This document shows, in pieces, positions 8,576-57,775 of a stretch of DNA of 64,000 bases. The notes under the pieces were generated by a model. It was not told the origin of the DNA. It worked only from the letters and a program-made list of their open reading frames with translations, and made no database searches. Origin of the DNA: Diphasiastrum complanatum (lineage: Eukaryota; Streptophyta; Lycopodiopsida; Lycopodiales; Lycopodiaceae). Positions within the stretch are counted from its first letter, which is position 1. Every line of letters starts with the position of its first letter. The translations under genes were made by a program, and so were the position numbers. Location of the stretch: positions 54,240,268 through 54,304,267 of the forward strand of contig CM055103.1 of NCBI GenBank assembly GCA_029204225.1, given 5' to 3'.

Positions 8576-9689
8576 AAACAACGACAAGCAAAGTTCAGTT
8601 CAAGACAGACAACAAACCAGTGAAAATACCCTTTTGAAGATTAAGGATGTCCTTGAATAATTAGGATCATGACCTTATCATAAGGTCCAAAAAGATTCCA
8701 CAAAATAAAATACGTTGGCAAGTTCAAAATCATTCAAACAGTAACTAACCACGATCCATCAAAGATTATCGAGAAAAATTTGGAGTTCTAGCTCAAATCA
8801 AGGATTTAGTAACATTGCTTCACAATTGAAGAGGTTCTGGATAAAAATCGATGAATCCTTATCGATTGAGGACACTGCAAAATATACCAGTCAAAATAAA
8901 ATTTTGCAGGTGAAAATGCTTATAAGACATTCAGGTGTCCTGGAAGAAAAGAATTGACGAGGTCAAACAATGGGAATGACCGAAATATACTAGGATGATC
9001 AATTTCAAAATTATGTTGAGAGGCCAAACGGATATTCATGTGATGGGTTTCAAAATGAAACAAAGAAATGTTATGAGATCTACTAATAGCCTTATTGAAG
9101 GTTAGTTTTGAAGAACTCACCCTTGTGAATGTTGTTGGAAGAGGATACACCAAGGATAATTCAAAGCCAACAACTCCTTAATGGACATATGTTAAATGGA
9201 CTTAAAATTTATTTCCAAAATGAGTAAATTCGAATTCTATGGAAGGGATTCAATGGGAAACAAGAATAGGATGGTGTTTGGAAGTGAGCGGTTGGTAACC
9301 TCTCTAGTTCTCTCTCACGAGGCATTCTGAAAGGGAGGCATTCATCAATTCATTCGTTCCAGTGTTCGTTCCAGTGTAGAGGAGAGGCTTGCTTTTGTTA
9401 TGAGCGAAGAGCATTCTAGTAATCTGGTTATGAATAGAGGCATGGATTCTTCTACTGCATTCTCTTTCTTAATGATTTGATATTATGTTGATTGATCCTG
9501 GAATATGATCATGGAGAAGACTTTTATGCAGATCTGCCCGCGCTCCTACCTATAGCTCTCTTGCTGGTCAGTCTGCGCTGGACAGAGATTTATCTCTCCT
9601 TTTCTATCTGCGCTGAATAAACATACCTTGATAAGATAAACCCTACGAGGAAATATCCATACATCAAAGGATTATTGGGAGGCTTATGT
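8576..9689. other. Unassigned sequence, possibly diverged LTR
   Basis: No gene supported. The stretch near 9290-9410 has CTCTCTCACGAGG and GTAGAGGAGAGG words resembling the middle of the 30.06-32.2 kb LTR. This could therefore be the rest of a diverged LTR, but the resemblance is too weak to assign. Confidence 0.35.
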
Positions 9690-10172
9690 ACATTGTAACA
9701 GGAATGGGGAACATATACTAGTGAGATCTTGGCACAATACATGTCCAGACCTTCAAAAATACATTGGGTGGCAACCAAAAGGCTAGTAACATATATAAAA
9801 GGAAGTACTGAATTCGAAGATTCAATACAAAGCACAAACGGAAAGGCAACATACCTTGTTGGTTACACAGATTCCGATTGGGGTGTAGACAGGAGTGACC
9901 GGAAATCAGTTTCAAGATATTGTCTTCAATATCAACCGGGGTTGCATTAGCTGGAGTACTAAAACGCAAAGCTCAACAACATTATGAAGCATAATACACG
10001 GCGGCTATTCCAGAAGCAAGCACATTGATGTGCAACATCATTTTCTGAGAGAAAGACTAGCAAACAAAGGATCGATTTAGTGTAACATCTAGCAAATATG
10101 TGTACTAAATCCCTTGCAACAGGAGAACATCTTTTGTTGTGCAGAAAATTACACCTTCCCGCTAACATCTGA
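9690..10172 (+). pseudogene. Ty1/copia RNase H fragment of a second lineage
   Basis: The peptide from 9729 has MAQYMSRPSKIHW, then YIKGSTEF and VGYTDSDWGVDRSDRKSVSRY, the copia RNase H core with its first Asp residues. In other frames after 9950 come SWSTKTQSS, an EA..YTAA-like segment and IDVQHHFLRERLANKGSI (10023-10080), the normal order towards the RNase H C-terminus. Several frameshifts are needed. The wording differs from the other copia copies in the window, so this is a separate lineage. Confidence 0.85.
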
Positions 10173-10394
10173 TAGTGACATAAAACAGCAAATTGATTAG
10201 TCAGTTAGCTAAACAAACTACAGCTTCAAAGATTGAAAGAACGTGGAGCAAGTCTTCGTCAGGCCCACGTGTCAAGTCAGGATGATATAGACCACTACTT
10301 CAAATTAGAATGCCATGAAACACTTTGTTCTGTGCCTGAATATCAGAATGGCTTCTCCATAACTGTGTTACTGGTTCTTTCATGATGAATGCGA

Positions 10395-10915
10395 TTGAAT
10401 GGTTAGAGCACAACGAGGAGCGGAGTCGTATTGCCAGAATTATCATAAAAGACACTCTCAAGAATATCCATCATAAAAACTACTCTCAAGAATATCTAGT
10501 CCACATGAAATGCTTGCCGTTTTGAAACTAGTATCACGTAAATTATTTGCGAGTACGAATTCTACTGCAGCAATGTCCGCGTCAATATCTACGGCCTCCG
10601 GTACCATTCCTAGCTTTGATAAGTTGTGCTCGCATTGTGATAGTGCCTGCGGATGGCTTAGCCGGACGCGTTTGAACTCCTCCATTGCAATCCCTAGAAG
10701 TGCGAGGAGGCAGTGACAGACAGGAAGGTGCACCCTCATCTAATACGTGCAATCGATGGCGTAACAGCAGATCGTAGTTTTTTGTGAAATGCTTCCGCCA
10801 GTAGAATTCTGTATTGGTAGCACTGCTCTATCTGCCGACGGCGTCAAAGGGAATGTCACATTTACGGCATGGCAATGACTTGCAGTCGGGATAAGCTTTG
10901 GTGGCCTGAGGGACC
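10395..10915 (-). pseudogene. ADT-like: Arogenate/prephenate dehydratase pseudogene
   Basis: The minus strand reads through the prephenate dehydratase domain in three frames: ATKAYPDCKSLPC (10905-10867), then DRAVLPIQNSTGGSI, KNYDLLLRHRLHVLDEG, and an open frame 10739-10458 with CHCLLAL, LSHPQALSQCEHNLSKLG, EAVD, ANNLRDT and GLDILE. These match the substrate-binding and catalytic blocks of plant arogenate dehydratases (phenylalanine synthesis, plastid), including the NLRDT block that carries the catalytic Thr. A tandem duplication of about 28 bp (GATATTCTTGAGAG repeated, around 10500-10455) shifts the frame, after which YDNSGNTTPLLVV resembles the end of the domain. The transit peptide, domain N-terminus and ACT domain are not recognised. 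Not functional as it stands. No introns are evident in the remnant. Confidence 0.8.
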
Positions 10916-11047
10916 AGGATGCGTTCCTCTGAGGGCAGTAGATCTTTTAGTACTTGAAGCAGTCAGGTAACGTAATTGATCGAAAAGGAGCAAAAGCGCG
11001 TGAGAGCAGCCACAAAAGCTTATCCCGACTGCAAGTCATTGCAATGC
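10867..11047. repeat. Inverted repeat made from dehydratase sequence
   Basis: The segment 10867-10905 and the reverse complement of 11010-11047 are almost identical, sharing GCAATGACTTGCAGTCGGGA and the following TAAGCTTT. Arms of about 38 bp are separated by about 104 bp. The left arm is part of the dehydratase pseudogene (KAYPDC codons, minus strand). The right arm carries the same codons on the + strand, so a piece of the gene was copied in inverted orientation. Confidence 0.85.
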
Positions 11048-11059
11048 TGAGATCCAGGA

Positions 11060-12900
11060 GGAAATTACGAAAAACAAGAAAACAAACACGCAGAAAGCAA
11101 AACAATCAGGGGAGCTAACAGGAAACATGTTCTTATAAGATGCAGTAAGTCGATCAGCTCAGGGCTCAGCACAACAGGCTAATCAAATGCTTAAAATGTA
11201 ATGAAAATCGCACTGCCTTATTTTAAACATGAATGGATTAACTAAACTGATCGATACATCTATGTGATCAATTCTTTATGGGGTCACCCAGAAGCAGCAA
11301 CCTAGCTTCTGGGGTTAATGGACAGTGCCGTCACTGGCTTCCAGGAGGATAAAGTTCTTAGCACCGCTTGATTACTAGAAGTGGCGTTCTTTTTTATTAC
11401 TTCTATGGCAACTGATGTTGCTTTAATAAGAACAAAAGATCAAAGTTCACCAAAGCCCAGCTGCCCGCTGCTGCTGAAGGCGAAGGAGCGAGTGAGATGT
11501 CATTCACCTTCGCTGGAAGATGCGAAGCTCTTTCTGTCTTCCCCTTCGTCGAAAGAGCATTGGCAGTTCCTTTCGTCAATTTTCGGTCCACTTGAGAAGT
11601 ATTTGCATATGTATGTATGTTTATATATATATATATACATCACCTTGTTAAGGACCAAATCAAATGGAAGGACGAAAGAGTTCTTGCATGTGATTTATGC
11701 ATGACACTTCTATACTTTTGTTTGTTAGTAAAAGTGGATACTAGGTGTACTATTGATTTAGCCTTTCCTTTCTCTTAAAACGTATAAAGGTCGTCTTGTG
11801 TGTGAAATCTTCATGGCCTTGAGTTTGCTTTGCGTATTGGAGACCCTCTTTAGGGTTTTAGTCGCCTCAAAAAGTTTTGGTTGTATAAGCAATTTTCAAC
11901 TTTGCATGGGGTTCTCCGAAAGTGTAACTTTTTTATGTACATGGCTTTTAGTTGTAACATCATTGATACATCTTATGTTACGACGTATAAGCCCATAACT
12001 TTTAGAACCTTGGTACAGTGTGGACTGGGGTCAAGCTGTAGTCAGTTTAAGAATGGTGATTTATCTACCTAAATTGACTTAGACAGATTTCTCTAGTCCA
12101 CAATCGGAGGAATGGCTGAAGGAATATTTTTTGCCTTTGTGTAAATTCTAACTAGGAACTTATGAACCAGGCTCTTAATATGGGATTAGCGGCAAATTAA
12201 CAATTCTTTACGAAATGGTTCCCAAGCATGTACCTAGTAAACAAAAATTTGATTTTTTGGCACTATGTTTTTTTTTAATGATTTAATTTTGGAGTAAGAT
12301 ATTGCCAAAAAATTGTACTTAAATTTACTTTAGGATTTTTACTTAAATTTACTTAAATTGTACTTGAGGATTTTTATATATAATCCATATTTATTCCTTT
12401 TCGGTTGATAATGTACCGATTGTTTTTTTGCTTTTGTCTTCTAATTGATTTTGATCATTAGGAAAGGACTGGCAAAAAGCTTTTAACAACAAAAGAGATT
12501 TGACATCATGTTACGATTTCTGTTACATTTACATTTGCAGTTATATACTAGATGCATTATGAGTTACCTAGTAAAATTTAGTGCTAATCAATCCTACATT
12601 GCACCTTTACCCTGGGTTACCACACAAGGTGAGCAAGAGTTAAGGCCTAAATGTAGGTCTCATTTTCATAGACTATTGTAGGTTATTTGCATAGACTATA
12701 ATAGGTAACTAATAGGTAAGTTACAAAGTACAACTAGAGTAGGGTTAGTATAGGATGACCTTTCATTGTCCTAACTACAATAGGACCCTAGGCATTGAAA
12801 CTAGTATATGCCTAATAAAGCTTATATCATGGTTAGTTCACATTGAACTTTGACCATTTGATTAAGGTATATTGTAAAGTTCTACATAGATTCTTTTGAG
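11060..12900. other. Unassigned AT-rich sequence with small ORFs
   Basis: A 10 bp-stem hairpin lies at 11286-11315 (ACCCAGAAGC pairing with GCTTCTGGGG). ORFs on both strands across 11381-11704 have mixed composition and no recognisable domain. A GC-richer patch at 11450-11590 could be a relic exon. Short direct words such as ATAGGTAA recur at 12700-12720. No gene supported. Confidence 0.4.
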
Positions 12901-14006
12901 AAATTCGACATCTTCAAGATGACAACCAAGTATCACTTACATGTGAAATTAGAGAAGGATTATGCGACAACCAAACCTGCATGGGGTGTTAACTTAAATC
13001 CGTATGAGATGCATTGTTGGAGATTAGAAGGCAAAAAACATATTGACCTATGGGTAAGAGGTGATTTATACCCCTGCAATCCACTAGTAGATGTGCCTCC
13101 TAAATAATATGATGTACATAGTTTGTTAAAGTTCATTGGGGATGGTGGTAATGGATTCCTTGGCTATTGTCAAGCAATGGATTCTCGAAGAATTCAAGCT
13201 GACATTGGCAAATATGGCAAACATTCATATATTGAGTATGAATGACAATTTAAAGTCATTACATGGAATAAATATGAAATTGGAACAAGAGATAAATGAT
13301 TTAAAAATAGAGCTTGCCAGTTCTGTCGCAAAAATTGAAGAATTGAAATCTTCAATCAGTATATTTGAGAGGACAATATATGGCTTACAACGAAAGCGTG
13401 GAGTCTTAATGGATCAGCAAGCACAAAATGAGAACACTAAAAGACACAAACTAGAAGCTTTGGCACCAGGTGGTGGTGCCAGTAAAAGACGTATGAGAGA
13501 CACAAAAGAGTTCTTGCAAAAGATGGTTGGAAAATATTTTATTGCTGGAAAATATATGAAAGATTTTCTGAAGGGTAAAGATTTGATTAAAATTGTGGAA
13601 GATGAAACAAGTGATTCAATTCGCTTGAGAATTGCAAAAGAGCTAGTCAACAAGCTCAAGCCAAATCCAAATGTTAAAGAGATGATGTACGCATGTGACC
13701 AAGGAGGTGTGAGTTGCAAGGGGTATAGAGCTTTAAAGAAGTATATGAAACGCTCTGACAAAAATGGGTTAAAACACCATCAGATAATACCTACTTATAA
13801 ACTTGTTGAATCCATCAAACGAGAATGCAATTCGATTTTGCTCTCTAAATTAGGAGAGTTTCAGCATATTGAGGATTCATTTACAATAACCAATAAGAAG
13901 AAAGGACCTGCGACTTGTTTTCATTATCATCAAGGCAAGAATATATTCTTAGATCTGGAAAAGGTCCAAGCAATGATGATCTGACATTACGAAGTTAAAA
14001 CAAATG

Positions 14007-14093
14007 GTAAGAACATTTCTTGTAGATTCCGATTTTCAGTTGTATGCTTCTCTTCAACTGATATGTTTTCATAATGAAAATTTTGTTTTATAG
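14007..14093 (+). other. Predicted spliceosomal intron 1 (87 bp)
   Basis: The donor is G|GTAAGA at 14007 and the acceptor TTTTATAG at 14086-14093, after a T-rich run. Removing it joins ...EVKTN to DCGGKVIFVIK in phase 1, in the same reading frame as both flanking ORFs. Confidence 0.75.
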
Positions 14094-15095
14094 ATTGTGG
14101 AGGTAAAGTTATATTTGTTATTAAGTTGGACGAAGTGAAAATCGTAAAAGGGCGTAAACTTGAACGTGTCACAATCACCTTGATGAACCATGAATTGCAA
14201 TAGTTTGGCGGAAGTTATTGTAAAGAATTTAGTGTGCAATCCGAAAATCACATATGGTGGATAGCTATATTTGAAGTTGCTAAGGAGTCTCATGAAGTAT
14301 TGAAGTGGCTATTTGAAAAATGTAGTATATCTAAGATAATACATGCACAAAATGAAGGCAAATTGCTCAATGTTGAAGGAGAAAGCTTTGTTGTAGAACG
14401 ACACCTAGCTGCTGATTTGAAGACCTTGAAATGTATGTACGGTTGTGGTCTCGATGCAAATGAAAGCATTTTTGTATATATTGTATGTTTGAATCTGGAC
14501 GAAACAGAAGTATTTTGAATTGCAACCAACGTCTTGCACCAAATAGGCACAATCTAGACAAAGCTTGGAGCCTTGTGTTGAACACTCCTCTCCAAAGAGT
14601 CCATTTTGGTGAATTACAAATACTGGACAAATTATTATTTTTGCATTGTTGTTACACATGGAACATGCAGCCCAAATCAAGAGCAGATGTTAGCGTTAGA
14701 AATCTAGAGATAATTTTATCTAATATGAGATTGCATGGGGTCCATGTGGGTCTTACCAAAGACGTTGAGATGAATGGAAAAATGCAAGATGTTCCAACAA
14801 AATTTTCAATGGGTGGTGCGAAAGCAAGACACTTATGTCAACTCATATTGTACGCAAAAGCAGTGTTGAATGGGAATACTGGAAGAAATTATGTCAATGC
14901 ACAACAAATATTGGCTCAGATCCTCGCATGGCAAGTATAGGTGCTAAGGTCTGGCAAGCATTTGATGCCTTGTCACAAACTATCAACAAAAAGATGATGA
15001 GAGATGAAGATTTGGATAGATACACAAGAGAAGTCAAAACATTCATGCAATTGATGATCGATGCATGGGGAGATACACACATAACTCACTATATG

Positions 15096-15174
15096 GTATG
15101 TGTGTATCATATTTTTTACTTTTGTATTTATGTATTTATAAAGATTTAAACTAATACAAATTTTATTTGAACAG
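15096..15174 (+). other. Predicted spliceosomal intron 2 (79 bp)
   Basis: The donor is ATG|GTATGT at 15096 and the acceptor TTTGAACAG ends at 15174, after a T-rich stretch. Removing it joins THYM to HIFYANGPW in phase 0, keeping the frame of the flanking ORFs. Confidence 0.78.
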
Positions 15175-15559
15175 CACATCTTTTATGCTAATGGACCTTG
15201 GTTTATAAAAACCTATGGATCACTAGCTATTTGGAATATGCAAGGGATGGAGAAGAGTCATTACAGGGCAAAGGCTGCAAATTTCAAAAATTCACGCCAT
15301 GGCGGAGGAAAGGGTCTTAGTAATGCATTGGTTGAGATATTCCAATGGTTTTACAGAGGAGTTTTGGGCCGAGGACACTTTGAAAACACAAGAACTGAAG
15401 AGTTGAGTTCAATGATCTCCAATTCAAATTCAGTTAGAAAGACCGCATGGCAATCCTCTAATGCTAAAACAAGACACCAAGAATGGAGGATATCTAGAGT
15501 CCGAGTTGGAAAGAGATGGATGCTGAGGCCACCAACATCCAATGTTTTGTAAAACAATG

Positions 15560-15940
15560 CTAGAGAAGCAACAAAAATTGATGTGATGGAATAGAAGCAA
15601 TTTATGTTAGATTGTACTTCGAATATTCCTTTGTGATAAATATTATTGACTAATTGTTGTTATAAATAAAAACTGTTTAATTTTATTTTATAATAATATC
15701 TATTTTTGAAAACATGTCCTTCTATATAAGAGTGTGAGTTCTCATTCTGTTGTCACTTCCTGCTCTGTTGAAATTTCTTCCCTCGTAGTTTAACTTCTCT
15801 CGTGTAATTAGACTAGTAATTTGCTGGTAAATTAGTTGTGAAAAAAGTGGATCTTGAATGGATCCAAACTCCTAAATTACTTGGCTAAGATCTTTGCACA
15901 ACAAGCTACAAAAGCTAGAAATGGCAAAGCATCCTAATGC
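15560..15940. other. Unassigned AT-rich sequence
   Basis: Nothing recognised. It lies between the decayed intron-containing gene and the copia fragment that begins near 15950. Confidence 0.4.
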
Positions 15941-15949
15941 TACCTTTGA

Positions 15950-17650
15950 TACACATGAACTTGACAAAGCATTCAAGTGCTCATTTCCTTGGCACATTCA
16001 CAAAGGGTTCTATTCTTCCTTTTTGCCACTCCATTCTGTTGTAGAGTCCTAGGACTAGAGTACTCCCTTCCCATGTGCTATGCAAAAATCTTTGAACTTA
16101 CTTGAAGTGTATTCCCCTCCAGTATCTGATCTCAAGCATTTGATCTTTGTACTAAATTAATTTTCCACTTCATTCTTAAACTTGACAAATGCAGCAAACA
16201 CTTCATCATTGGTTTTAAGAAGATAGACCCACATTAGAAAAAATTTGAGCACAAAAGGGGCCTTTCAAAAAGACACCTTTTATTTTTTTTCTCAAAATTT
16301 TCTTCCACATGGTCCAATGAAAACACTCAAATTTGAAATCTACATAACGTAGCTCCTTCAAATTGATTTTCATTTCTTTTTTAAAGAAATGTAATTTTGC
16401 GTCGGGGGCAACCCGTAAATAAGCCATTTTATTTGTAGTATAGTATGCAACTCAGCAAAAAAATAGTGTAACTTTTTACCGGCAACTCGGATTGAGACAA
16501 TTATGGTGCCATTAGAAAGCCCTCGATGAGAGCTTTTCAATGACACCAACATGACCCAGTTCCAAGCTACAGTGAAGAAGTTATGCTAGTCCAAGTTTTG
16601 GTCGGTCAACACTTGGTCAACCCGATATCTCTTTCAAGCGCAGTTGACCGGTTTGACCAAGCTACGGTGAAGAAGTTATGGCCAGTTAAAGTTTTGGTAG
16701 GTCAACACTTGGTCAACCCGATATCTCTTTCAAGCGCAGTTGGCCGGTTTGTCACGATATATCTTTCAAGCGCAGTTGACCGATTTGACAAACCGATCAA
16801 CTACGCTTGAAAGCGATATCGGGTTGACCAAGTGTTGACCTACAAAACTTTGATTGGCCATAACTTCTTCATCGTAGCTTGGAGCTGTCATGTTGGGTGT
16901 CGTTGAAAAGCTCTTGTCGAGGGCTTTCTAATGGCACCGTAATCGTCTCAATCCGAGTTGTCGTTCAAAAGTTATGATTTTTTTCAGTCACAGACTATAC
17001 TACCTACATAATAGCTAATCATCGAAGACTGTGTGGACAGGACTGCAGGCAGAAAAAGACTTTATTTTAGTATTTTACATTGCCAAAAAATTGTCATCCT
17101 ACGTGGCAATCCTTATAGGGCCCTTTCCAAGTCCAAATTTTCTCTAATGAGTATACCTACTAAAGTCATCAATTAAAGTTGCATACATTTTTACCCCACC
17201 ATTGCTAGTTGTACTAAAAGAATGAAGATCCGAGTTGAAAAACTACTTTAGATCTAGAAGTAGATCTAGTATAAGCAAGTCTACGAGATTTGGACAAGGC
17301 ACCATGTTCACAAAATGTATTATTTGGAACAAGACTTTTAGGGAGACCAAGAATATGCTCTTTCTTTTTCATTACCTCCAAAGATTTGAAGTTGGGATGG
17401 CCCAACCTCTTATGCCAAACTTCTTGGTTTGTCAATTGTTCTCTAGCCATACAGCCTTCATTCTTAGAGATCACACAAGCATCCAGTTTGAAAAGTTTAC
17501 CATGCCTTCTTCCTTTAGCAATCAAGGATCCACACTTACTTATCAAACAAGCATCTCCAATGAACTCAACATCAAGTCCCTTGTCAATCATTTGACTAAC
17601 AATAAGCAAGTTCTTAGTGATTGAAGGAATGTACAATACATTTTCAAGAT
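15950..17650 (-). pseudogene. Ty1/copia GAG-pre-integrase/integrase fragment split by a MITE
   Basis: On the minus strand, 17636-17214 encodes ITKNLLIVSQMIDKGLDVEF and VWHKRLGHPNFKSLEV, ending in a degraded zinc region. The frame resumes after DDFSRYT (about 17170). The 918 bp element at 16232-17149 interrupts the integrase core exactly there, and the other side continues WVYLLKTNDEVFAAF and LRSDTGGEYTSSKFKDFC with stops (16231-16030), fading after KNRTLCECAKE near 15950. It resembles the intact 45.6 kb polyprotein more than the non-autonomous family. Dead. Confidence 0.85.
16232..17149. mobile_element. Foldback/MITE-like DNA element A
   Basis: The ends are inverted repeats: 16232 reads CATTAGAAAAAATTTGAGCA, and the reverse complement of the other end reads CATTAGAGAAAATTTGGACT, each followed by an A-rich, GGGCC-containing block. 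Inside is a second palindrome with ~200 bp arms at about 16426-16640 and 16797-17000. Between them are tandem copies of a ~110 bp unit containing GGTCAACACTTGGTCAACCC and TCTTTCAAGCGCAGTTG. It encodes no transposase. No target duplication is evident at its copia target. Confidence 0.8.
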
Positions 17651-17699
17651 TTACTTGTTGATACCAAGATCTCCTTAGGAAAGGAATTCAAAATACAAG

Positions 17700-19084
17700 A
17701 TCTTGTTGGCATAAATGACGGCTTCTAAAAAATTGTCAAATAAACTAGAATAAATGACGATTTTCTAGGCCGTCATTTATTCCAGTTTTTGCAAGAATTG
17801 ATGTTTAAGTCTATGTATCACATATACTTATCATAATAGGCAGTTATCCAACCATTCATGTGTAAATTTACCTACTTGGGTTATACATGGGATATTATAC
17901 CTATCGACGTGTTCTATATTGTCGGATTTAACACTAACACATATCATCGATGTGCATCAAACAATATATGACACACTTATATCAATTTAAGGGCATGTTA
18001 TACTATCATATCCATCTAAATACTTTTATTTGCCCACTTATCTACCCAGTAAGCCAAAAAACATAAAGAAACATTATTTTGGCATAAATGACGGCTTCTG
18101 AAAAATTGTCATATAAACCAGATTAAATGATGGTTTTTGTAGGCCATCATTTAATCAATTTTTTTACATGAATTGATATATATGTGTATTTATCACATAT
18201 ATTTATCATAATAGGTAGTAATCCATCCATTCATGTGTAGATTTAGATACTTGGGTTATGCATGTGATATTATACCTATCCACGTGTTCTAAACTGTCAG
18301 ATTCAACACTAATACATATCATCAATGTATATCAAACAATAAATGACACTTGTATCAATTTAAAGGCATGTTATACTATCCTATCCATCTAACAATTTTT
18401 ATTTGCCCACTTATCTACACATGAAGCTATAAAACTTCAAGAAAATATAATTTTTGGCATAAATGACTGCTTCTGAAAAACTGTCATATAAACCAGAATA
18501 AATGACGGTTTTCTAGGCCGTCATTTATTCCATTTTTTACATGAATTGATATTTAAGTCTATGTATCACATATACTTATCATAATACGCAATAACATATC
18601 CATTCATGTGTAAATTTACCTACTTTGGTTATACATGGGATAGTATAACCATCAATGTGTTCTATATTGTCGGTTCAACACTACTACATATCATCGAAGT
18701 GTCTCAAATGATATATGACATTCACTTATATCAATTTAAAGCCATGTTATACTATCATATTCGTCTAACAACTTCTATTTGCCCACTGATCTACACATGA
18801 AGCCATAAAACTTAAAAAAAATGTAATCTTTGGCATAAATGACGGCTTCTGAAAAACTGTCATATAACCCAGAATAAATGACAGTTTTCTAGGCCGTCAT
18901 TTATTCCATTTTTTGCATGAATTGATATATAAGTCTATGTATCACATATACTTATCATAATAGACAGTAATCCATCCATTCATTTGTAAATTTACCTACT
19001 TGGATTTTACATGGGATATTATACCTATCGACGTGTTGTATATTGTCGGATTCAACACTAACACAAATCATCGACATGCATTAT
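17700..19084. repeat. ~374 bp satellite array, left block
   Basis: Tandem units begin with GGCATAAATGACGGCTTCT-like sequence at 17708, 18081, 18456 and 18832 (periods 373, 375 and 376). Each unit has a hairpin pairing AAATGACGG with CCGTCATTT around TTTTCTAGG. The last unit is cut near 19085 where copia gag sequence starts. The array resumes at 28350. Small ORFs inside (for example 18606-18800) are repeat by-products. Confidence 0.92.
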
Positions 19085-22000
19085 ACACTTGGGATACTCT
19101 CAAGTCCATCCATGAGGCAAAGAATACTTCTACACTTCTAACACTAAGAAACCAAATTTTTCAAAGTGTACAGAGAAGTGATGAATGTGCTTCAGCTTAT
19201 GTAATGAGAGTTAAAGACCTCCATAGAGAATTGTCATGCATAGGAGACTCCATCAACTGAAATGAACTTGTTCAAGTCATACTTAATGGGTTAAAGGAGG
19301 AATATGACAACCTTGTTCAGAGTTATGCCATTAAGGAGGAGCTACCAAGTTTGGAAGCACTCCAAAGTGTGCTCATTTTTGAAGAATCAAGACAAGAGTA
19401 TAAACTCTTGAAAATGGAGAGACTGTCTCTCAACATTGATGGTAAAGCCCTCTTTACCAAAGACAAGCACAAGACAAGAAGTAAGAATCAACACCAACCC
19501 TCTTCAAGTAAGAACAATCTTATTTCCAAGGAGAAAGGAGAAGAGGATGAGTCCTCTCAAGCTTCCACATCCAAGCAGAAGAAGAAAAACAAATTGTTTG
19601 ATAGTGGACTAGATGTGAATTTCAATGTTGATACATGTACAATCAAGAAGCATGATGAGATCCTTGCATTTGGGTCTAGGTATGGTGGAATCTACAAGCT
19701 TGATCCCAAAGAGTATGCTAACTCTTGTGATGGTGCTTTTGCTTCTCATATTTCTCTGGAGGAACTTTGGAATAGAAGGTTGGGACATCCTAACTATAGT
19801 TCTATGGTGTCCATGGTCAAGAAAGCCAAAGCTACTGGCTTGCCAAATCTTATCTCCAAGAATTTCAAGCCATGTGAGGCTTGTGCCATATCTAAGTCCC
19901 ATAAGAAGTCTTTTTCAAAGTCATCTATCAAGACTACACATCCATTAGAGCTCATACACTCGAATGTGCACTTCTCATCTTCAAAGAGCAAGGGTGGTGC
20001 TACTTGCTTTGTAACTTTCATTGATGATTTCACTAGATTTACTTGGTTATATCTTCTAGCTTCAAAGTCTATGGTGTTTGACTATTTCCTAAAGTTCAAA
20101 GCTCTAGTTGAAAAGCAATTTTCATACAAAATCAAGATTCTTAGAAGTGATGGAGGTGGTGAGTACACTTCCAATAAATTTCATGATTATTGTGAGCTTG
20201 AAGGCATTAAAAGGGAGTTTTCTTGTGCATATACACCATCTCAAAATGGGGTGGCTAAAAGAAAGAATAGAACATTGTGTGAATGTGCCAAAACCATTAG
20301 AATTGAGACATCCTTCATATGAAGCACTTTATTTGAAGAAACCTAAGGTTGATCACCTTAGAGTATTTGGATGCATATGCTTTGTCCATATTCCCTTGGA
20401 AACGAGAAAGAAGGATGATCCTTGTGCAAGCAAAGGAGTAATGGATTCATCCAACAAGAAAGCCTATCGAATCTACATGCTCTCTACTTCTAAAGTAATT
20501 GATAGTAGAAATGTAGTTTTTCTTGAAGAAGAAAAGTCCAATCTTGGAGGGGTCGAGATCAAGCAACCTCAAAATCTATCACCTTTTGTTATTGAAGACA
20601 ATCAACATATGGAAGAGTCGAGATTTGAAGATGGAAGTCCTCGGATTTTCACTCCTAGAAGATCCATGAGGGAGAGATCCGAGCCTAAGAGGCTCACTTA
20701 TGATGACAAAGGAAAACAAGTGGATCTTGATTCCACTTATGCTTATTTTATTTCTAATGAGGAGCCCAAAGATGTCCAAGAAGCCCTCAATACCAAGGAG
20801 TGGTATGAGGCCATGAAGATTGAATATGATGCCTTGATCAGCAACCACACATGGGAGCTAGTGGATCCACCACCTAACATGCATATTATTGGATGCAAGT
20901 GAGTGTTCAATATCAAGTACAATCATGATGGCTCCATCAACAAGTACAAGGCAAGATTATGTGCTAAAGGCTTTGCACAAATATATGGCCTTGACTATGA
21001 AGAAACCTTTGCTCCTATAGCAAAGATGGTAACAATAAGAATTATAATCTCTCTTGCCTTATTTTTTAAGTGGAAACTGTTTCAACTTGATGTCTCCAAC
21101 GCTTTTTTGAATGGCTATCTTGAGGAGGAGATATACATGGAACAGCCTCAAGGATTTATCAAGGATAAATCTAAGGTGTGTTTGCTATTTACAAGTCTTT
21201 GTGGCTTGAAGCAAGCACCTAGATCATGGTATTCAAGACTCAACAACTTTCTACTTTTATTAGGATTTGTGCTTAGTGACTATGATCCTTCTATGTACTT
21301 AAAGTTTGATGGTAGTAATATTGTCATTCTTCTAATCTATGTAGATGACATTATTCTTAGTGGAAGTTGTTTGATGGTAGTTCAAGAAACCAAAGATGCA
21401 TTAGGAAAAGAATTTAAAATGCAAAATCTAGGAGAGATTCATTACATTTTGGGCCTTGAGATTGATTTTCATGAAAAGTATGCTTTTATTTGTCAATCTA
21501 GATATGTCTTTTCTATGTTGAGAAAATTCAATATGCAAAATTGTAAAGGCATAGATACTCCCATGGAGCAACATGTAAAAGATCCTATTAAAGGTGATGA
21601 AATATCCTTCGAGGACATCACACTTTATAGGAGTCTTACAGGCTCTTTAATTTGGCTTACTATCACTAGACCCAATTTGAGCTATTGTGTGCACAAATTG
21701 AGTCAATTCATGCAAGATCCTAAGATCCAACATTGGAAGATGGCCAAGGGAGTTCTAAGATATGTATCTTCTACTCAAGATTATGGTTTATTGTACAAGA
21801 ATGAAGATCTAACCATTGTTGGCTACTCGGATTCCGATTTTGCAAGTGATAAAATGGATCGAAAGTCCATTAATGCATATAATATCTTTCTTGGAGGCAA
21901 TCTTGTGTCTTGGCTTTCAAAAAAGCAAGATACCATATCTCTATCTTCTTGTGAAGCCAAGTACAAAGCACTCACTACAACAACTAAATAGGTGCTTTGG

Positions 22001-28114: not shown

Positions 28115-28349
28115 TGGTATCAGAGCCTACCTAAGATTTACAAGCAAATCTAATCAAAAAGTTTGCAAATTTGATCAGATTTTAAGCTAGGAATTGTCTA
28201 GATTCTACTTTCTAGCTAGTTTTTTTTTGCAGTTTTTTGGTGATTTAGAGCTTCAAACCACTAGAAGGTCCAGATCATTTACTGTATGGAATTTCAGGTG
28301 CTGGCACGTGTGAAATCTGCCCATTTTCAGTTTGGTGGTTCTCTCTATG
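28115..28349 (+). mobile_element. Primer binding site and truncated copia leader
   Basis: The primer site TGGTATCAGAGCC starts at 28115, followed by leader related to that at 22171-22893 (TTTGGTGGTTCTCT near 28330). It ends abruptly against the satellite. Confidence 0.8.
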
Positions 28350-30059
28350 ACAGACTTATATCAATTTAAGGGCATGTTATACTATCATATCCATCTAACT
28401 ACTTTTATTTTCTCACTTATCTATCCATCAAGCCATAAAACTTTAAAAAATGTCATTTTTCGCATAAATGACGGCTTCTGAAAACTGTCATATAAACCAG
28501 ATAAATGACGATTTTTCTAGGCCATCATTTAATCCATTTTTTGCATGAATTGATATATAAGTCTATTTATCAAATATATTTATCATAATAGGCAGTAATC
28601 CATCAATTCATGTGTAAATTTACCTACTTTGGTTATGTATGAGATATTATACATATCCACATGTTCTAAACTGTCAGATTCAACACCAATACATATCATC
28701 GACGTGTATCCAAAAATATATGACACACTTATATCAATCGAAAGACATATTATACTATCATATCCATCGTACAACTTTTATTTGCCCACTTATCTACACA
28801 TGAAGCTATAAAACTTCAAAAAAATGTAATTTTTGGCATAAATGACAGCTTCTGAAAAGTTGTCATATCAACCAGAATAAATGACGGTTTTCTAGGCCGT
28901 CATTCATGTGTAAATTTCCCTACTTGGGTTAAACATGGGATATTATAACTATCGATGTGTTCTATATTGTCGGTTCAACACTAATACATATCATCGACGT
29001 GTCTCAAACAATATCTGACTTTCACTTATATCAATATAAAGCCATGTTATACTATCATATTCGTCTAATAACTTTTATTTCCCCACTTATCTACACATGA
29101 AGCCATAAAACTTCAAAAAAATATAATTTTTGGCATAAATGACGGCTTCTGAAAAACTGTCATATCAGCCAGAATAAATGACAATTTTCTAGGCCGTCAT
29201 TTATTCCATTTTTTGCATGAATTGATATTTAAGTCTATGTCTCACATATACTTATCATAATAGGTAGTAATCCATCCATTCAATTTAAAGGCATGTTAAC
29301 CATTCACTTATATCAATTTAAAGGCATCTTATAGTATGATATCTATCTAATTACTTTTATTTTGCCCACTTATCTACACATGAAGCCATAAAACTTTTTA
29401 AAAAAATTCATTTTTGGCGTAAATGATGACATCTGAAAAACTGTCATATAAACTAGAATAAATGACGATTTTTCTAGGCCATTAAACTACTTTTTGCATG
29501 AATTGATATATCAGTCTATCTATCACATATATTTATAATAATAGGCAGTAATCGATCAATTCATGTGTAAGTTTACCTACTTGGGTTATGCATGGGATAT
29601 TATACCTATTCACGTGTACTAAACTATCAGATTCAGCACCAATACATATCATTGATGTGTATCAAACAATATATGAGACACCTATATCAATTTAAAGGCA
29701 TGTTATACTATCATATCCATCTAACAATTTTTATTTGCCCACTTATTCACACATGAAGCTATAAAACTTCAAAAAATGTAATTTTTGACATAAATGATGG
29801 CTTCTGAAAAACTGTCATATAAACCAGAATAAATAACGGTTTTCTAGGCCGTCATTTATTCCATTTTTTGCTTGAATTCATATTTTAGTCTATGTATCAA
29901 ATATATTTATCATAATATGTAATAATTCATCCATTCATGTGTAAATATACCTACTTGGATTATACATGAGATATTATAACTATCGATGTGTTCTATATTG
30001 TCGGATTCAACACTAATACATATCATCGACGTGTATCATACAATATGTGACCCATTTAT
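28350..30059. repeat. ~374 bp satellite array, right block
   Basis: Units begin at about 28461, 28835, 29132, 29416 and 29787 with GGCATAAATGACGGCTTCTG-like sequence. Two units are shortened to 297 and 284 bp by internal deletions. The same AAATGACGG/CCGTCATTT hairpin is present, intact in some units and mutated in others. The LTR at 30060 is inserted in the last unit. Confidence 0.92.
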
Positions 30060-32195
30060 TGTAGTGCATTTTTATAGTCAAAATTTTAAAATTTCAGCAA
30101 TTACAATCATTGATGCTGATTTTCTAGAAAAAAATGTTCTAGATGTATCTCATATGCGCAAAATCTGCTAATATGCCACTTTTTACTGATATACGAATGT
30201 GGCTATGTTAAAGAGTAGCTATGAAATTCTATGGCATGTTCAAATGTTATAATCAATTCTCAAATGACAGTTATATCAAACAAATTAGACCTATTTTTAC
30301 TACGTTACTATTTTTAGTAATTCTGTTAAATAGCAATAAGCTATTTTTAGCACACTCGTAAGTGACTTTGATGGATGATAATATCGACAGTTGCTAAGTA
30401 GTTTTATTAAATGGCAATTTTTTGCCATATTGTAATGATGAAATGTACTTTATATCATGATTAATAAAAAATGCTCAGGTACCTTTAAGGCACTGACTTA
30501 AGTTTCAAGGAAAGGTCCTAAGGTTAAGGGTTCGACGATGTTCAGTTGCGGTTTACAGTGAAGAGTAGTTTGTGACTTAAAAAATCTTGTTACTGGAAGA
30601 AGTGAAATGAAAACGGCAGTTTAAAAAATTGTTGATGCAAAGTAAAATGCAGACTTACAACTCGAACTTGTTGGGTTGATGTCAGACAAGTTTTCCGAGT
30701 TCGAAATATTGATATTTTGGTAATTTCCCTTGGTGGGGATGACGATTGATTATACCGAGTGTCGGTTTGTATGTGATGCTGAGTTGCCAGTTTTATGATG
30801 GTTCATGTTGAATACGAAGTCACGAGTAACACAGACAAGAATGAAAGGAATGGTGATACCTACGAGACAGTTCAACATCCGGGAAAAAATCGGAGTTTCG
30901 AAAACCCAAAAGTGGGAAAATGGTTTTGAAGGCCAAAATGTTCAAGATAGGCCTTTAGTGAAAAGTTAGTTATGAGGCACCTCCTCTCTCACGTGAAGGC
31001 AGGGAAAGAGGAAAGAAGGGATTCATTCTACGTAGAGGAGAGAAGAGATTCATTCTGTGTAGAAGGAAGAAGAGTGTAGAGGTTGTGGATGCAAGAACTG
31101 TGTGTCAGGAAAGTGATCACAGTGCATTCAACCCCTCTCATTTCCAGTATGAATGTTCACCAATGTGTGTACTGATTAATGTCAATGACACGAATACTCA
31201 ATGAATCTTGTCTGAAATTCAAATGCAGTCTGGTAATGATCAAGAAACACTGAAGTTCTGTTTGGACAGCGATCTGATCTGGAGAATGCACAATGATTGG
31301 CAACTTGAAGAACAAAAATGAAGGCCGTTTTACAACGATTTGTGTGGCATTCAACAACCTCTGTTACATGCAATCATTAACAAAGACATCTGATTGTTTT
31401 CCATGTGAACATGAATGCTAGATAGTTTGCAGACTCTCTATCCATTGGTGGCAACCCTTTGTCAGATCTCTGTGTGATCGATGCTGATGGGCGACTTTCA
31501 GCACTGGGTCTACATTATATATTCACCTGTAGAGATAGAAATCAGCGTGAAAGACTGTTGGAAGACCTGCGGGGCTGCTGCAGATCAACGAACCAGCTTC
31601 TGAGCCTTGGGTGCAGAACTTCCGATCAGTATGGAGGGCGGATTGCAAACTCGTGGGTTGTAAACGTTGAGTGGCGGCCCGTCGCTGATCCTATTTGAAA
31701 CCCGTATGCAGACCAACGAGCTGTAGATAAACGAGGATGCATCAAACCTGTGACAGAAGTGTGTAGAAGGAAGGTGCAGAAGAGCAATCAAACGAGAGAG
31801 AAGAACGCGATCCAGAAAGGTGAAGAGGGTGACCATTTGCGGTTCTAATCCACGCGACCCTGCTATGTGCCATCCCTGTGTATATTTGTGAAGGGTGAGA
31901 AGAGCTGCACATCGCTGATCGCTGACTATCACGCGATCCAGACCACGCCCCTTGCTGGAAGGCTGACCCGCGACCTGCTCCACGAGATTTTTGGAAAAAA
32001 TGAAGAAGATGACCCGGTAAAGAATAAGATGGAAGAAAAATAGAGAGTGACTCAAATGTGGAAGGCATGACTTTATCTCAAGGACCCTCCTTGAAATTTA
32101 AGTCAGAGCATAAGGATTTGAGGTGAAATCATTTATCTTTTTACTGTATTTTTTTTGGTTTAATCATGTGGTTAAGCATGTAGATTGGTTTTTTC
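30060..32195 (+). mobile_element. 5' LTR (~2.1 kb) of gag-only LTR element, left copy
   Basis: It starts TGTAGTGCATTTTT inside satellite DNA. It matches the reverse complement of 36474-38578 over its whole length at very high identity, with a ~95 bp indel at about 31095-31190 present here only. The 3' boundary is set by loss of that match near 32195. The two copies share a ~150-residue open frame (minus strand, 32055-31585; + strand 36616-37146). It resembles no protein I know and is probably chance in a conserved LTR. Confidence 0.82.
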
Positions 32196-36473: not shown

Positions 36474-38578
36474 AAAAAAAACCAGTCTACATGCTTAACC
36501 AAATGATTAAACCAAAAAAAAATACAGTAAAAAGGTAAATGATTTCACCTCGGATCCTTATGCTCTGACTTAAATTTCAAGGAGGGTCCTTGAAATAAAG
36601 TCATGCTTTCCACATTTGAGTCACTCTGTATTTTTCTTCAGCAGCCCACATAATTCCTTGCCAGAATGCCGGTTCCCATCTTATTCTTTACCGGGTCATC
36701 TTCTTCATTTTCCAAAAATACAAGAAAACGGCCTTCAGTCTCGTGGAGCAGGTTGCGGGTGGTGGAGCAGGTCGCGGGTCAGCCTTCCAGCAGGGAGCGT
36801 GATAGTCAGCGATCAGCGATGTGCAGCTCTTCTCACCCTTCACAAATATACACAGGGATGGCACATAGCAGGGTCGCATGGATTAGAACCGCAAATGGTC
36901 ACCCTCTTCACCTTTCTGAATCGCGTTCTTCTCTCTCGTTTGATTGCTCTTCTGCACCTTCCTTCTACACACTTCTGTCACAGGTTTGATGCATCCTCGT
37001 TTATCTACAGCTCGTTGGTCTGCATACGGGTTTCAAATAGGATCAGCGACGGGCCGCCACTCAACGTTCACAACCCACGAGTTTGCAATCCGCCCTCCAT
37101 ACTGATCGGAAGTTCTGCACCCAAGGCTCAGAAGCTGGTTCGTTGATCTGCAGCAGCCCCGCAGGTCTTCCAACAGTCTTTCACGCTGATTTCTATCTCT
37201 ACAGGTGAATATATAATGTAGACCCAGTGCTGAAAGTCGCCCATCAGCATCGATCGCACAGAGATCTGACAAAGGGTTGCCACCAATGGATAGAGAGTCT
37301 GCAAACTATCTAGCATTCATGTTCACATGGAAAACAATCAGATGTCTTTGTTAATGATTGCATGTAACAGAGGTTGTTGAATGCCACACAAATCGTTGTA
37401 AAACGGCCTTCATTTTTGTTCTTTAAGTTGCCAATCATTGTGCATTCTCCAGATCAGATCGCTGTCCAAACAGAACTTCAGCGTTTCTTGATCATTACCA
37501 GACTGCATTTGAATTTCACACAAGATTCATTGAGTATTTCTTGCATCCACAACCTCTACACTCTTCTTCCTTCTACACAGAATGAATCTCTTCTCTCCTC
37601 TACGTAGAATGAATCCATTCTTTCTCCTTCCCTGCCTTCTTCACGTGAGAGAGGAGGTGCCTCATAACTAACTTTTCACTAAAGGCCTATATTGAACATT
37701 TTGGCCTCCAAAACCATTTTCCCAGTTTTGGGTTTTCAAAACTCCGATTTTTTCCCGGATGTCGAACTGTCTCATAGGTATCACCATTCCTTCCATTCTT
37801 GTCTGTGTTACCCGTGACTTTGTATTCAACACGAACCATCATAAAACTGGCAACTCAGCATCGCGTACAAACCGACACTCGGTATAATCAACCGTCATCC
37901 CCACCAAGGGAAATCACCAAAATATCAATATTTCGAACTCGAAAACTTGTATGACATCAACCCAACAAGTTCGAGTTGTAAGTCTGCATTGTACTTTGCA
38001 TCAACAATTTTTTAAACTGCCGTTTTCATTTCACTTCTTCTAGTAACAAGATTTTTTAAGTCACAAACTGCTCTTCACTGTAAACCGCAACTGAACATCG
38101 TCGAACCCTTAACCTTAGGACCTTTCCTTGAAACTTAAGTCAGTGCCTTAAAGGTACCTGAGTATTTTTTTATTAATCATGATATAAAGTACATTTCATC
38201 ATTACAATATGGCAAAAAATTGCCATTTAATAAAACTACTTAGCAACTGTCGATATTATCATCCATCAAAGTCACTTACGAGTGTTGCTAAAAATAGCTT
38301 ATTGCTATTTAACAAACTTACTGAAAATAGTAACGTAGTAAAAATAGGTCTAATTTGTCTGATATAACTGTCATTTGAAGATTGATTATGACATTTGAAC
38401 ATGCCATAGAATTTCATAGCTACTCTTTAACATAGCCACATTCGTATATCAGTAAAAAGTGGCATAATAGCAGATTTTGCACATATGAGATACATCTAGA
38501 ACATTTTTTTCTAGAAAATCAGCATCAATGATTGTAATTGCTGAAATTTTGAAATTTTGACCAGAAAAATGCACTACA
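36474..38578 (-). mobile_element. 3' LTR (~2.1 kb) of gag-only element, right copy
   Basis: The reverse complement starts TGTAGTGCATTTTTCTGG at 38578, preceded by a polypurine tract AAGTGGGGGGAAAA (38594-38581). This proves the repeat is an LTR and gives its orientation. It ends at about 36474, where copia sequence starts. It lacks the ~95 bp segment found in the left copy. Confidence 0.85.
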
Positions 38579-43614: not shown

Positions 43615-44316
43615 AAGAGATCCAGGATGGTGATGGAATGTCACGAAAAGCTCATCTACAAAGTCATCACAGCCAGATCTAGGGAAATCAAGCCAGATCA
43701 AGCCAGATCCATCAAGATCCAACAATATCTAAAAAGTTCCGACAACATTCGACCAGATCTAAATGAGATCTAGATCCCAAAGGGATCAACAAGGAAGCAG
43801 ATCGTCAGATTGACTAATGGATCAACTACCAATATTCTATCAAAACTTCCAGAGAACTACTTATAGTCAGATCCAACCTGGATGCAATGGAATACCAGTT
43901 TTCAGGAGTTAAGAATCAGAGAATCTCAAGATCTCATCAAAAAACACTCAAAAAGAGCGTTTTTTTCATGATTTTTGAAAATCCCTTGGGAATTAGCTCT
44001 TGAAACTTTGAAAGTCACCAGATATGACCCAGATGCATCTATAAAAATATCTACGAGAGTTACTGATAGAAAAATCATCAATTTTGAGTGTGTGCGAGAG
44101 TTCATAGAAGCAGAATTTTCAGAACCTTTGTAGAGCATCAAGATCAGCAAACCAACCTTTGCAAGGGGCATAATTGGAATCAGAGTAGTGAAATTAGCCT
44201 GCCTATTGGTTCTGATCTTGAAAATCCAATGTCGAGTAAGTTGTGCGAGAGATCACTTCCTACGAGCATTGAACCCTTGTAGACAGTTTGAACCCTCGCA
44301 GAACCTTCGCAGGGCA
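43615..44316 (+). other. Gypsy 3' noncoding region
   Basis: AT-rich sequence with GATCTAGATC and AAGCCAGATC words and CGAGAGTTA motifs shared with 41500-42150. It is the target of the intact copia and continues at 50188 (TGAGATCACC). Confidence 0.5.
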
Positions 44317-44321
44317 GTGAG

Positions 44322-44974
44322 TGTGAAAAATTGTCAACTAGTAGTATTTTCCTAACTTGAGATTTTGTAGGCCTATGGCCAAATAAAAGTTAGAGATAGG
44401 TTCATACATGTATGTAGAGGCCCAAAGTATGTGTACACTACTTTTGAGGTCACATTAATTAGAGGAGGTCGAGTGTGGAGCTCTTCTATTGGCTCATAAT
44501 TTGGTGCATTCCTATTTGACCAAATTTCTAGGTATATGGGTGAATCCTATTGGACCCCAATTTTAGCCTATCATAAGACAAGTGGCCAAGAGGCACTATG
44601 GCTGCTATAAATAGCCATCTCCACGAGTATGTACACATCTCATTTTCATTCTATTGAATGAATGTTATGCTCTTTGAAGGTCCATCTTCTTCTCTCTCAC
44701 TTTTTTGTTCATATCTTGCATTCTAGCCACTAGAATTGTGATTTCTTTGTTGCTATGGCTTCACACGTGTGAAATGCAGGTTGTAGGCTCTGAAGTACGG
44801 ACAGGGACAGCAAGTTTCTGTTTGTGGAAGCTTATGATCAGATTTTGATGTTTAGTTGATGTTTAGTATGCTTAACATCACAATTTCTATCATTTTTTCA
44901 ATCTAGATGTGCATAACTTCCATGGCCAAGATCTTTATGAAACTTTAGCATCTTTTGGATCTGAGTTTTTCACA
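44322..44974 (+). repeat. 5' LTR of intact copia
   Basis: It starts TGTGAAAAATTG and ends GAGTTTTTCACA. It contains a TATAAATA box at 44606-44613 that would drive the genomic RNA, and an ACACGTGT palindrome around 44763-44770 (G-box core CACGTG), a possible regulator site. Confidence 0.95.
44606..44613 (+). promoter_or_regulatory. TATA box of the copia LTR promoter
   Basis: TATAAATA in the sequence GCTGCTATAAATAGCC, the only good TATA match in the LTR. It is repeated in the 3' LTR at 49814-49821. Transcription would start some 25-35 bp downstream. Confidence 0.75.
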
Positions 44975-49534: not shown

Positions 49535-50182
49535 AAAATTGTCAACTAGTAGTATTTTTCTAACTTGAGATTTTGTAGGCCTATGGCCAAATAAAAGTTA
49601 GAGATAGGTTCATACATGTATGTAGAGGCCCAAAGTATGTGTACACTACTTTTGAGGTCACATTAATTAGAGGAGGTCGAGTGTGGAGCTCTTCTATTGG
49701 CTCATAATTTGGTGCATTCCTATTTGACCAAATTTCTAGGTATATGGGTGAATCCTATTGGACCCCAATTTTAGCCTATCATAAGACAAGTGGCCAAGAG
49801 GCACTATGGCTGCTATAAATAGCCATCTCCACGAGTATGTACACATCTCATTTTCATTCTATTGAATGAATGTTATGCTCTTTGAAGGTCCATCTTCTTC
49901 TCTCTCACTTTTTTGTTCATATCTTGCATTCTAGCCACTAGAATTGTGATTTCTTTGTTGCTATGGCTTCACACGTGTGAAATGCAGGTTGTAGGCTCTG
50001 AAGTACGGACAGGGACAGCAAGTTTCTGTTTGTGGAAGCTTATGATCAGATTTTGATGTTTAGTTGATGTTTAGTATGCTTAACATCACAATTTCTATCA
50101 TTTTTTCAATCTAGATGTGCATAACTTCCATGGCCAAGATCTTTATGAAACTTTAGCATCTTTTGGATCTGAGTTTTTCACA
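49530..50182 (+). repeat. 3' LTR of intact copia
   Basis: 653 bp, collinear with the 5' LTR at an offset of 5208 bp, with one substitution seen (49559). It holds the polyprotein stop codon (49532-49534) and the second TATA box at 49814. Confidence 0.95.
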
Positions 50183-56962: not shown

Positions 56963-57775
56963 TATTGAATTCACACGTGTGGATTGGCCACAACATGTAC
57001 TTGTGATCTCCTAAGGTGTGTAGATGCACCAAGATTAAGATTAGATTGAGATTCAAGATCAATCTTAGATCCTATGGCAAAAACACACTACTACATGCAT
57101 TCAATCACTTCCAACTCACATGTGTGGGAAGTGTTCCAAAAGTATTCTAAGTAAAAACAAGCTACTCTCGTCGGGTAGAGAGAGAAAAACCATCATGAGC
57201 TCTCAGGTAGAGAGAGAAAGCTAGAAATTCAATGACACTCAAAATCCACTCAATCTCAAAATCAATTTTATCCAAATGAGGAGTACAATGATACTAGTAG
57301 ATCCACAAGCTACCACTATGCTTAACTATGATTGGACCACACTTTGCCACCTCTTAATCCTATTGGACCATTGATCCATGCACCTCTAAATTCTATTGGA
57401 CTATATTCAAGCAAACCTCAAATTCTATTGGACCACTCATGGTTCCACCTCTAAATTCTATTGGACCTCTTAAACTTCATCAAACAAAAGCATTACACTT
57501 GTCTACACTCTAATTGGCACGAGTTTGGCCTCCTACTCTATTTTGGCTCAATAGTAGCATTACAAGTGGAAATGGATAATTTGCCATCTATGCCAAATTT
57601 AACCCTATCAACATCCTACACCTAAATGCTTGACTATGAAATTCTATGAGACCCCTATATCAAACTATTTACTTTACAATTCTCCACATGTGGGAACATC
57701 CTCCACACATGTGAGATTAACTTACAAACTTCTATCATAAAAAATACCAAGCTAGATTTTTGCCAATTTCTCACA
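56963..57775 (-). repeat. 3' LTR of non-autonomous copia (813 bp)
   Basis: The reverse complement begins TGTGAGAAATTGGC at 57775 and ends ..GTGTGAATTCAATA at 56963. The terminal CA has become TA. Compared with the 5' LTR it lacks about 250 bp and has many substitutions, so it is much older than the 44.3 kb element. Confidence 0.85.

Follow-up and report, generated by a model that had tools for sequence, protein, structure and literature searches.

A Broken Three-Exon Gene in a Lycopod Genome Is Probably the Transposase Gene of a Multicopy DNA Transposon That Carries a Histone H3-Like Gene

Results and Discussion

A Broken Gene with Two Introns Lies in the Window

The window analyzed here, a stretch of 64,000 nucleotides from Diphasiastrum complanatum, contains at positions 12919–15552 a single broken gene interrupted by two GT-AG introns (Table 1). 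In the window copy, the reading frame of exon 1 is disrupted by stops and one frameshift, while the gene itself ends with a TAA stop codon at 15550–15552. The first exon junction is in phase 1 and the second in phase 0. We aligned 21 copies of this gene, threading them on the columns of one of them (copy B), and found four stops and eight gapped codons in the window copy relative to these columns, the last of the four stops being located 14 codons upstream of the usual one. An earlier note on this DNA, made from the letters alone, had proposed that the two introns preserve the frame and that intact relatives may exist. Both proposals were borne out: the intron coordinates are right, and once the introns are removed, the whole gene is open over 841 codons, with no stops, in another genomic copy, L011, compared with a longest open run of 143 codons in 500 base shuffles of the L011 coding sequence.

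Table 1. Coordinates of the element remnant and of the gene it contains, in window positions
Feature	Position	Strand	Evidence
Truncated copy of element 1	12575–15836	+	BLAST against 20 genomic copies; common edges
Exon 1 of the probable transposase gene; coiled coil	12919–14006	+	Reading frame and alignment of copies
Intron 1, GT-AG, 87 bp	14007–14093	+	Splice dinucleotides across the covering copies
Exon 2, candidate catalytic core	14094–15095	+	Translation; order of predicted secondary structure
Intron 2, GT-AG, 79 bp, CTAAT branch-like motif	15096–15174	+	Splice dinucleotides across copies
Exon 3, containing the block GMEKSHYRAKA	15175–15552	+	At least 150 matches in the same genome; pN/pS

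All 17 copies that cover intron 1 have a GT donor, and 15 of the 17 have an AG acceptor. For intron 2, the donor is GT in 20/21 copies, and the acceptor (window 15173–15174) is AG in 11/21, the others reading AA (eight copies) or AT (two copies); L011 is among the copies without AG. This loss of AG (10/21) exceeds the mean divergence of the copies, and the CAG falls in a CHG methylation context. The 10 copies without AG raised the possibility that intron 2 is an artefact, standing for a shorter intron or a frameshift. We rejected this reading and retained the intron because its donor holds in all copies but one and because its CAG acceptor is in a CHG context, which we infer to be prone to G-to-A decay.

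Selection on the gene was estimated from 13 of the 21 copies, omitting the window copy, its duplicate L025 (see below) and six partial copies. For the three-exon gene, pN/pS was 0.57, the ratio staying below 1 in 72 of 78 pairs; for exon 3, it was 0.28. Codon positions taken alone show no third-position excess in exons 1 and 2.

The Gene Belongs to a Long Transposon with Terminal Inverted Repeats

Exon 3 has at least 150 matches in its own genome (1.74 Gb), a lower bound given that 150 were scored out of 5,760 candidates, and its copies are spread over contigs C1 to C24 as well as small contigs. The 20 copies that we analyzed with their flanks match the window over 12575–15836 only, with the exception of L025; their common left edge lies ~67 bp farther out, and they also have a long 3′ extension in common. 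Two copies were read to both ends, copy A (8,850 bp) and copy C (8,262 bp): both start with CATTAGGGCCC, end with GGGCCCTAATG and are bounded by perfect 37-bp terminal inverted repeats (TIRs). In copy B, both TIRs lack their terminal bases. The TIR folds as an 11-bp hairpin stem (z = −5.7 against 200 shuffles), and a 32-bp stretch of it has 653 exact occurrences genome-wide, compared with 0 for the reversed control. No TIR match was found within the window, whose copy is devoid of the outermost ~67 bp (left TIR included) and of the right part, and holds ~3.3 kb of the 8.3–8.9 kb of the complete element. Given the common TIR ends and the shared edges, the window copy is therefore a truncated left-part remnant of a long TIR transposon, which we call element 1. 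Complete copies contain the three-exon gene, an unplaced ORF on the plus strand (the second gene), a histone H3-like gene of ~405 codons on the minus strand and a fourth gene, also on the minus strand.

We conclude, with a probability of about 0.8, that the window gene, decayed and truncated, is one copy of the gene that probably encodes the transposase of a large plant DNA transposon. The copy number and the common TIR ends rule out both a lone host gene and a domesticated one. The same two observations dispose of one suggestion of the earlier note, a lone lineage-specific gene; its other suggestion, a captured or domesticated transposon protein, was right in linking the gene to a transposon but not in the nature of that link, the gene being the multicopy element's own. 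It is very improbable that a host lineage-specific gene merely lies inside a segmental or satellite repeat: although L025 duplicates the window copy at 99.5% identity ~174 kb away, the copies are located on C1 to C24, have unrelated flanks and share their TIR ends. L025 (G000:C12:54423200-54433199) duplicates window 9000–19000 with the same truncated element copy inside, suggesting that a copy already truncated was recently duplicated as part of a larger segment.

Insertion Occurs without a Common Target-Site Duplication

We examined seven insertions with two ends: copies A and C, a 1,140-bp copy and four further long ones (7.4 to 11.4 kb). The latter were chosen from the first 100 of the 653 TIR places, three of them being known by an exon 3 match inside and the fourth being the L009 copy; the TIR sites L041 and L042, which point away from each other, were left out as a pair. 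Directly beside the element ends, 0, 0, 1, 0, 1, 2 and 3 bases match in the seven insertions, and there is therefore no fixed-length duplication common to them. An 8-bp target-site duplication, a feature of hAT elements, was found at 0/7 sites, and insertion within AAATTT, the preference of Spy elements, likewise at 0/7.

At three sites, the target sequences join in frame with 0 bp duplicated. The flanks of copy A join in this way inside a copia frame, and an unrelated copia fragment of the window has equal spacing. The joined flanks of copy C form a frame that stays open across all of the 300 bp that were read. For the 1,140-bp copy, a 3-bp AAT repeat is possible, but the length of a copia fragment from L029, an independent sequence, speaks against such a duplication and in favor of 0 bp. 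At a further site (C2:7.6 Mb), the join exceeds the frame by one base. If true, insertion without target-site duplication would imply a blunt or unusual strand transfer, and it may mark a new transposase group. The 1,140-bp copy itself (L032, G000:C1:67871296-67872435) is non-autonomous; its TIR ends are those of element 1, it has a G+C-rich inverted repeat inside, and it is inserted in the RNase H frame of a copia sequence.

The Three-Exon Protein Is a Likely DDE-Type Transposase

Searching Pfam with the three-exon protein gave nothing above cut-off for any part, in line with the earlier note, which could assign it to no family; exon 1 gave weak matches of the coiled-coil type, all below cut-off. 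For exon 2 alone, matches above cut-off were also absent from NCBIfam and PDB. Exon 2 gave weak sub-threshold matches to DUF6866_N (E = 0.011) and Sfum_1244 (E = 0.051). DUF6866_N was rejected as the family of exon 2, its match being below threshold, and a literature search gave no paper that mentions this domain. PF21739 was silent in this genome and likewise in 14 controls, and is hence uninformative. Among the ORFs scanned for a hAT or dimerisation domain, there was no hAT match in Pfam. A viral or polinton-like origin is considered unlikely, as no Pfam match points that way and no relative of the gene was found among the viral contigs searched.

In intact copies, exon 2 harbors a first Asp in KLDEAEI and a second one in HLAADLK, with CxxC and HxC after it, and the GMEKSH of exon 3 is a candidate site for the third acidic residue. 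We take this D-D-CxxC pattern to resemble that of transposon proteins from animals and fungi. AlphaFold gave a poor model for exon 2 (mean pLDDT 43), which for this reason was not used for a fold search. Within this low-confidence model, the order of strands and helices is compatible with an RNase-H-like core, in which the first strand would hold the first Asp and the second Asp would sit just before the helix that follows strand 101–105. Given a poor model and no sequence match, the identification as a transposase relies on position, copy number and motifs, on the basis of which the three-exon protein is likely a DDE-type transposase that moves element 1.

There is about an even chance that element 1 belongs to a known superfamily (e.g., PHIS/Spy, CMC, KDZ or the D...D-CxxC...E group) and that its transposase has diverged too far to be recognized. 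The D-D-(E)-like order, the CxxC and HxC past the second Asp, the perfect TIRs and the weak matches of exon 2 to DUF6866_N and Sfum_1244 all agree with such an origin, which is opposed by the lack of any match above any cut-off and of a common target-site duplication.

Element 1 Carries an H3-Like Gene with a Retained Tail End

The H3-like gene is encoded on the minus strand in the right part of complete copies and is absent from the truncated window copy. Its core matches the Pfam Histone family (E = 1.4e-27) and 176 PDB sequences at E ≤ 1e-3, the best of which is H3.1 (1.3e-25), aligned without gaps over 88 residues and ~55% identical. CenH3 proteins have a longer loop 1. The sequence upstream of the core reads MSEEMARTKQTARDP, and the predicted protein starts with MSEEMARTKQTAR (MSEEM) or, from the second ATG, with MARTKQTAR. 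The first ATG has a C at −3 and a T at +4, and the second a G at both positions; this better context makes initiation at MARTKQTAR plausible.

Residues 1–8 of the canonical H3 tail are ARTKQTAR. The element 1 protein thus resembles canonical H3.1 in these eight residues and in its gap-free core, and departs from it in the replacement of the tail from K9 onward and in a low-complexity linker of ~300 residues, in addition to the divergence of the core. The start of the tail is present in 11 of 20 element 1 copies, the remainder ending earlier or lacking it, and among these 11 tails ARTKQTAR is exact in eight, carries one change in two and two changes in one. Past residue 8, the sequence continues as ARTKQTAR-DP, and the remainder of the canonical tail, including K9, K14 and K27, is missing. 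R2 is replaced by W in 4/12 tails.

None of the 11 tail-bearing copies has an unbroken frame from tail to core, the two being in different open fragments. We checked two additional copies, one of which (L053) joins tail and core and the other (L052) does not. The frame of L053 spans at least 410 codons and continues up to where the sequence read ends (440 codons in the genome-wide set of core copies), has W at R2 and separates tail from core by the ~300 low-complexity residues. The core has at least 150 copies in the genome, and stop-free open frames of 391–440 codons are found in 5 of the 150 listed. Its pN/pS ratio is 0.44, with 44 of 45 pairs below 1, as calculated on 10 of 12 aligned copies (L009 and L028 omitted). 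In the tail region, the first 40 codons of 11 copies are no more variable at third positions than at the other two.

The fourth gene is open over 286 codons in one copy (L010:1143-2000). Copies of this gene have a weak PB1-like C terminus (PF00564, E ~0.09, below cut-off). A split BAH domain, read by eye in the same gene, was discarded, as neither Pfam nor PDB gave support.

A Second, Divergent Family Has an H3 near a Fourth-Gene Homologue

A second set of genes including an H3 adjoins one element 1 copy on G000:C23 (L043:1128-2332 and L028:308-3212). It comprises a 394-codon H3-like frame reading MAHTKQTTR from its first Met, a fourth-gene homologue separated from it by a copia element, and, on the plus strand, an ORF that we read as the counterpart of the second gene. 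At least 150 copies of this second-family H3 were found, and among the 150 listed, 11 have stop-free open frames of 367–448 codons. In the eight copies that we fetched, the tail starts with MA followed by R, H or C, and KQT is kept in 7/8, with a stop at Q5 in the other; MARTKQTT is found in three copies and MARTKQTTR in two, R2 is H or C in five and T3 is changed in one. The R2 changes in both families are perhaps due to CpG decay. Past residue 8, the tail reads ARTKQTTR-L, and here too K9, K14, K27 and what else makes up the canonical tail are missing.

Over the first 122 codons, the second family has a dN/dS of 0.31, with 25 of 28 pairs below 1. In the core, variability at third positions is roughly double that at first and second positions, while the nine tail codons show no third-position excess. 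These codon comparisons, together with those of element 1, show the H3 cores of both families to be under purifying selection. For the tail, selection is suggested by what the two families keep in common rather than by codon positions within one of them.

The H3 cores of the two families are 33–44% identical, and their fourth genes 28.5% identical over 207 aa (E = 8e-18). No significant similarity was found between the second genes (blastp E = 0.077), and the only three-exon gene found near the second family is that of element 1 itself. In 3.4-kb stretches around eight second-family copies, H3 is adjoined by the putative second-gene ORF in four and by the fourth gene in one, and the order and orientation of the genes differ between the two H3-bearing families. 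Given that H3 is found in both families, together with homologous fourth genes, the pairing of these two genes therefore looks old, like a long-standing partnership as far as the sequences tell.

The Transposon-Borne H3 May Act Against Silencing

In both families, tail residues 1–8 of H3 are better kept than what follows, and K9 is lost. Plants silence transposons through H3K9 methylation coupled to DNA methylation of the CMT type, while H3K4 methylation accompanies activity. Based on the retention of residues 1–8, the loss of K9 and the use of H3K9 in plant silencing, we regard counter-silencing, by a K9-less H3 built into the chromatin of the element, as the most likely of three putative roles, albeit with somewhat less than even odds. 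The H3-like protein would pair with H4 and enter chromatin over the element, where it would present lysine 4, the site of an activity mark, without lysine 9. Lacking this residue, the loop between H3K9 methylation and DNA methylation would not be maintained over the element.

Next in rank, and rather unlikely, would be a helper function in transposition, whereby the H3-like protein docks the transposase on nucleosomes, or its free A-R-T-K end, by histone mimicry, recruits host readers of the PHD or WDR5 type that open or target chromatin. The first eight residues of H3 are the stretch bound by such readers, and it is these residues alone that are kept; moreover, the long low-complexity linker of element 1 would hold the tail off the nucleosome. 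However, that both families lack K9 would also be expected under an anti-silencing role.

The third reading, in which the element passively carries an H3 gene that derives from a host histone captured by transduplication and has no role, we consider improbable. Plant transposons often carry host gene fragments. Many copies are broken, the tail codons lack a third-position excess inside either family, and the fungal precedents are described as transduplication (PMC6710886, PMC3538342). Passive cargo would hardly account, however, for two families with such divergent cores that have each retained an H3 core and a start of the ARTKQT type near homologues of the same fourth gene, nor for core ratios (pN/pS or dN/dS) well below 1 in either family and long stop-free frames persisting in 5/150 and 11/150 of the copies listed.

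Returning to counter-silencing, it can be joined with the insertion data into a wider proposal, which we advance with more reserve: a superfamily of plant DNA transposons may long have carried its own H3, which retains the K4-bearing start of the tail and lacks K9, to write chromatin that cannot be silenced, and may insert without target-site duplication by means of an undescribed group of transposases. If true, a natural H3 that bears K4 and lacks K9 would offer a direct test of the dependence of plant silencing on H3K9.

Relation to Known Transposons

Transposon-borne H3 is already known from fungal hAT elements: those of Pyrenophora tritici-repentis carry an H3-like gene, H3L, which is reported to be expressed and to have insertions in its tail and variable helices, and hAT elements with H3 are also found in Mycosphaerellaceae (PMC3538342, PMC6710886). 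Like element 1, these are multicopy TIR transposons in which an H3-like gene lies beside the transposase gene, and the P. tritici-repentis element also has another ORF. Element 1 differs from them in its plant genome, in the lack of a detected hAT domain and of an 8-bp target-site duplication, in its 37-bp hairpin TIRs, in its fourth gene and in the retention of the first eight H3 residues; in addition, there are two divergent H3 families here, with cores under purifying selection. What is new is thus an H3-bearing transposon in a plant, free of hAT features and of a common target-site duplication, with a retained tail and a second family. The literature matches listed include no case of a plant transposon-borne H3, subscription papers being mostly outside the search. 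If true, H3-bearing transposons would have arisen in plants besides fungi, and the annotation of such genomes may count transposon histones as host H3 genes.

Spy elements are distributed in animals. The Spy (PHIS) group leaves no target-site duplication and has a strong preference for AAATTT (PMC4482050). Element 1 likewise is a DNA transposon that shows no common duplication at its seven sites, but it was found at AAATTT in none of them, and no similarity to PHIS transposases was found in Pfam.

Accessory functions directed against silencing have been described elsewhere. VANDAL elements of Arabidopsis encode VANC, a sequence-specific anti-silencing protein (PMC10398659); they are, like element 1, plant DNA transposons with accessory genes and a counter-silencing function, which is putative in element 1, but VANC is sequence-specific, whereas the accessory protein of element 1 is a histone. 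Several lineages of fungal DNA transposons carry TET/JBP genes, proposed to counter silencing (PMC12730594). As with the H3-bearing families, an epigenetic gene is thus found in several transposon lineages, but TET/JBP proteins are dioxygenases acting on methylcytosine, in place of which element 1 carries a histone.

Other Repeats in the Window

The window contains further repeats, and the copia and CACTA-like sequences noted in the analysis agree with a plant host. Two arrays with a repeat spacing of ~375 bp (17683–19184 and 28346–30139) lie ~10 kb apart. Two inverted arms of 755 nt, 98% complementary (31180–31934 and 36797–37551), may represent a large foldback or a pair of elements in opposite orientation, and more inverted pairs are found around them. 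Finally, two pairs of direct repeats, one 99% alike and 5.2 kb apart (44316–44615 and 49524–49823) and the other 97% alike and 4.4 kb apart (57257–57556 and 61684–61983), could be the LTR pairs of young retrotransposons.
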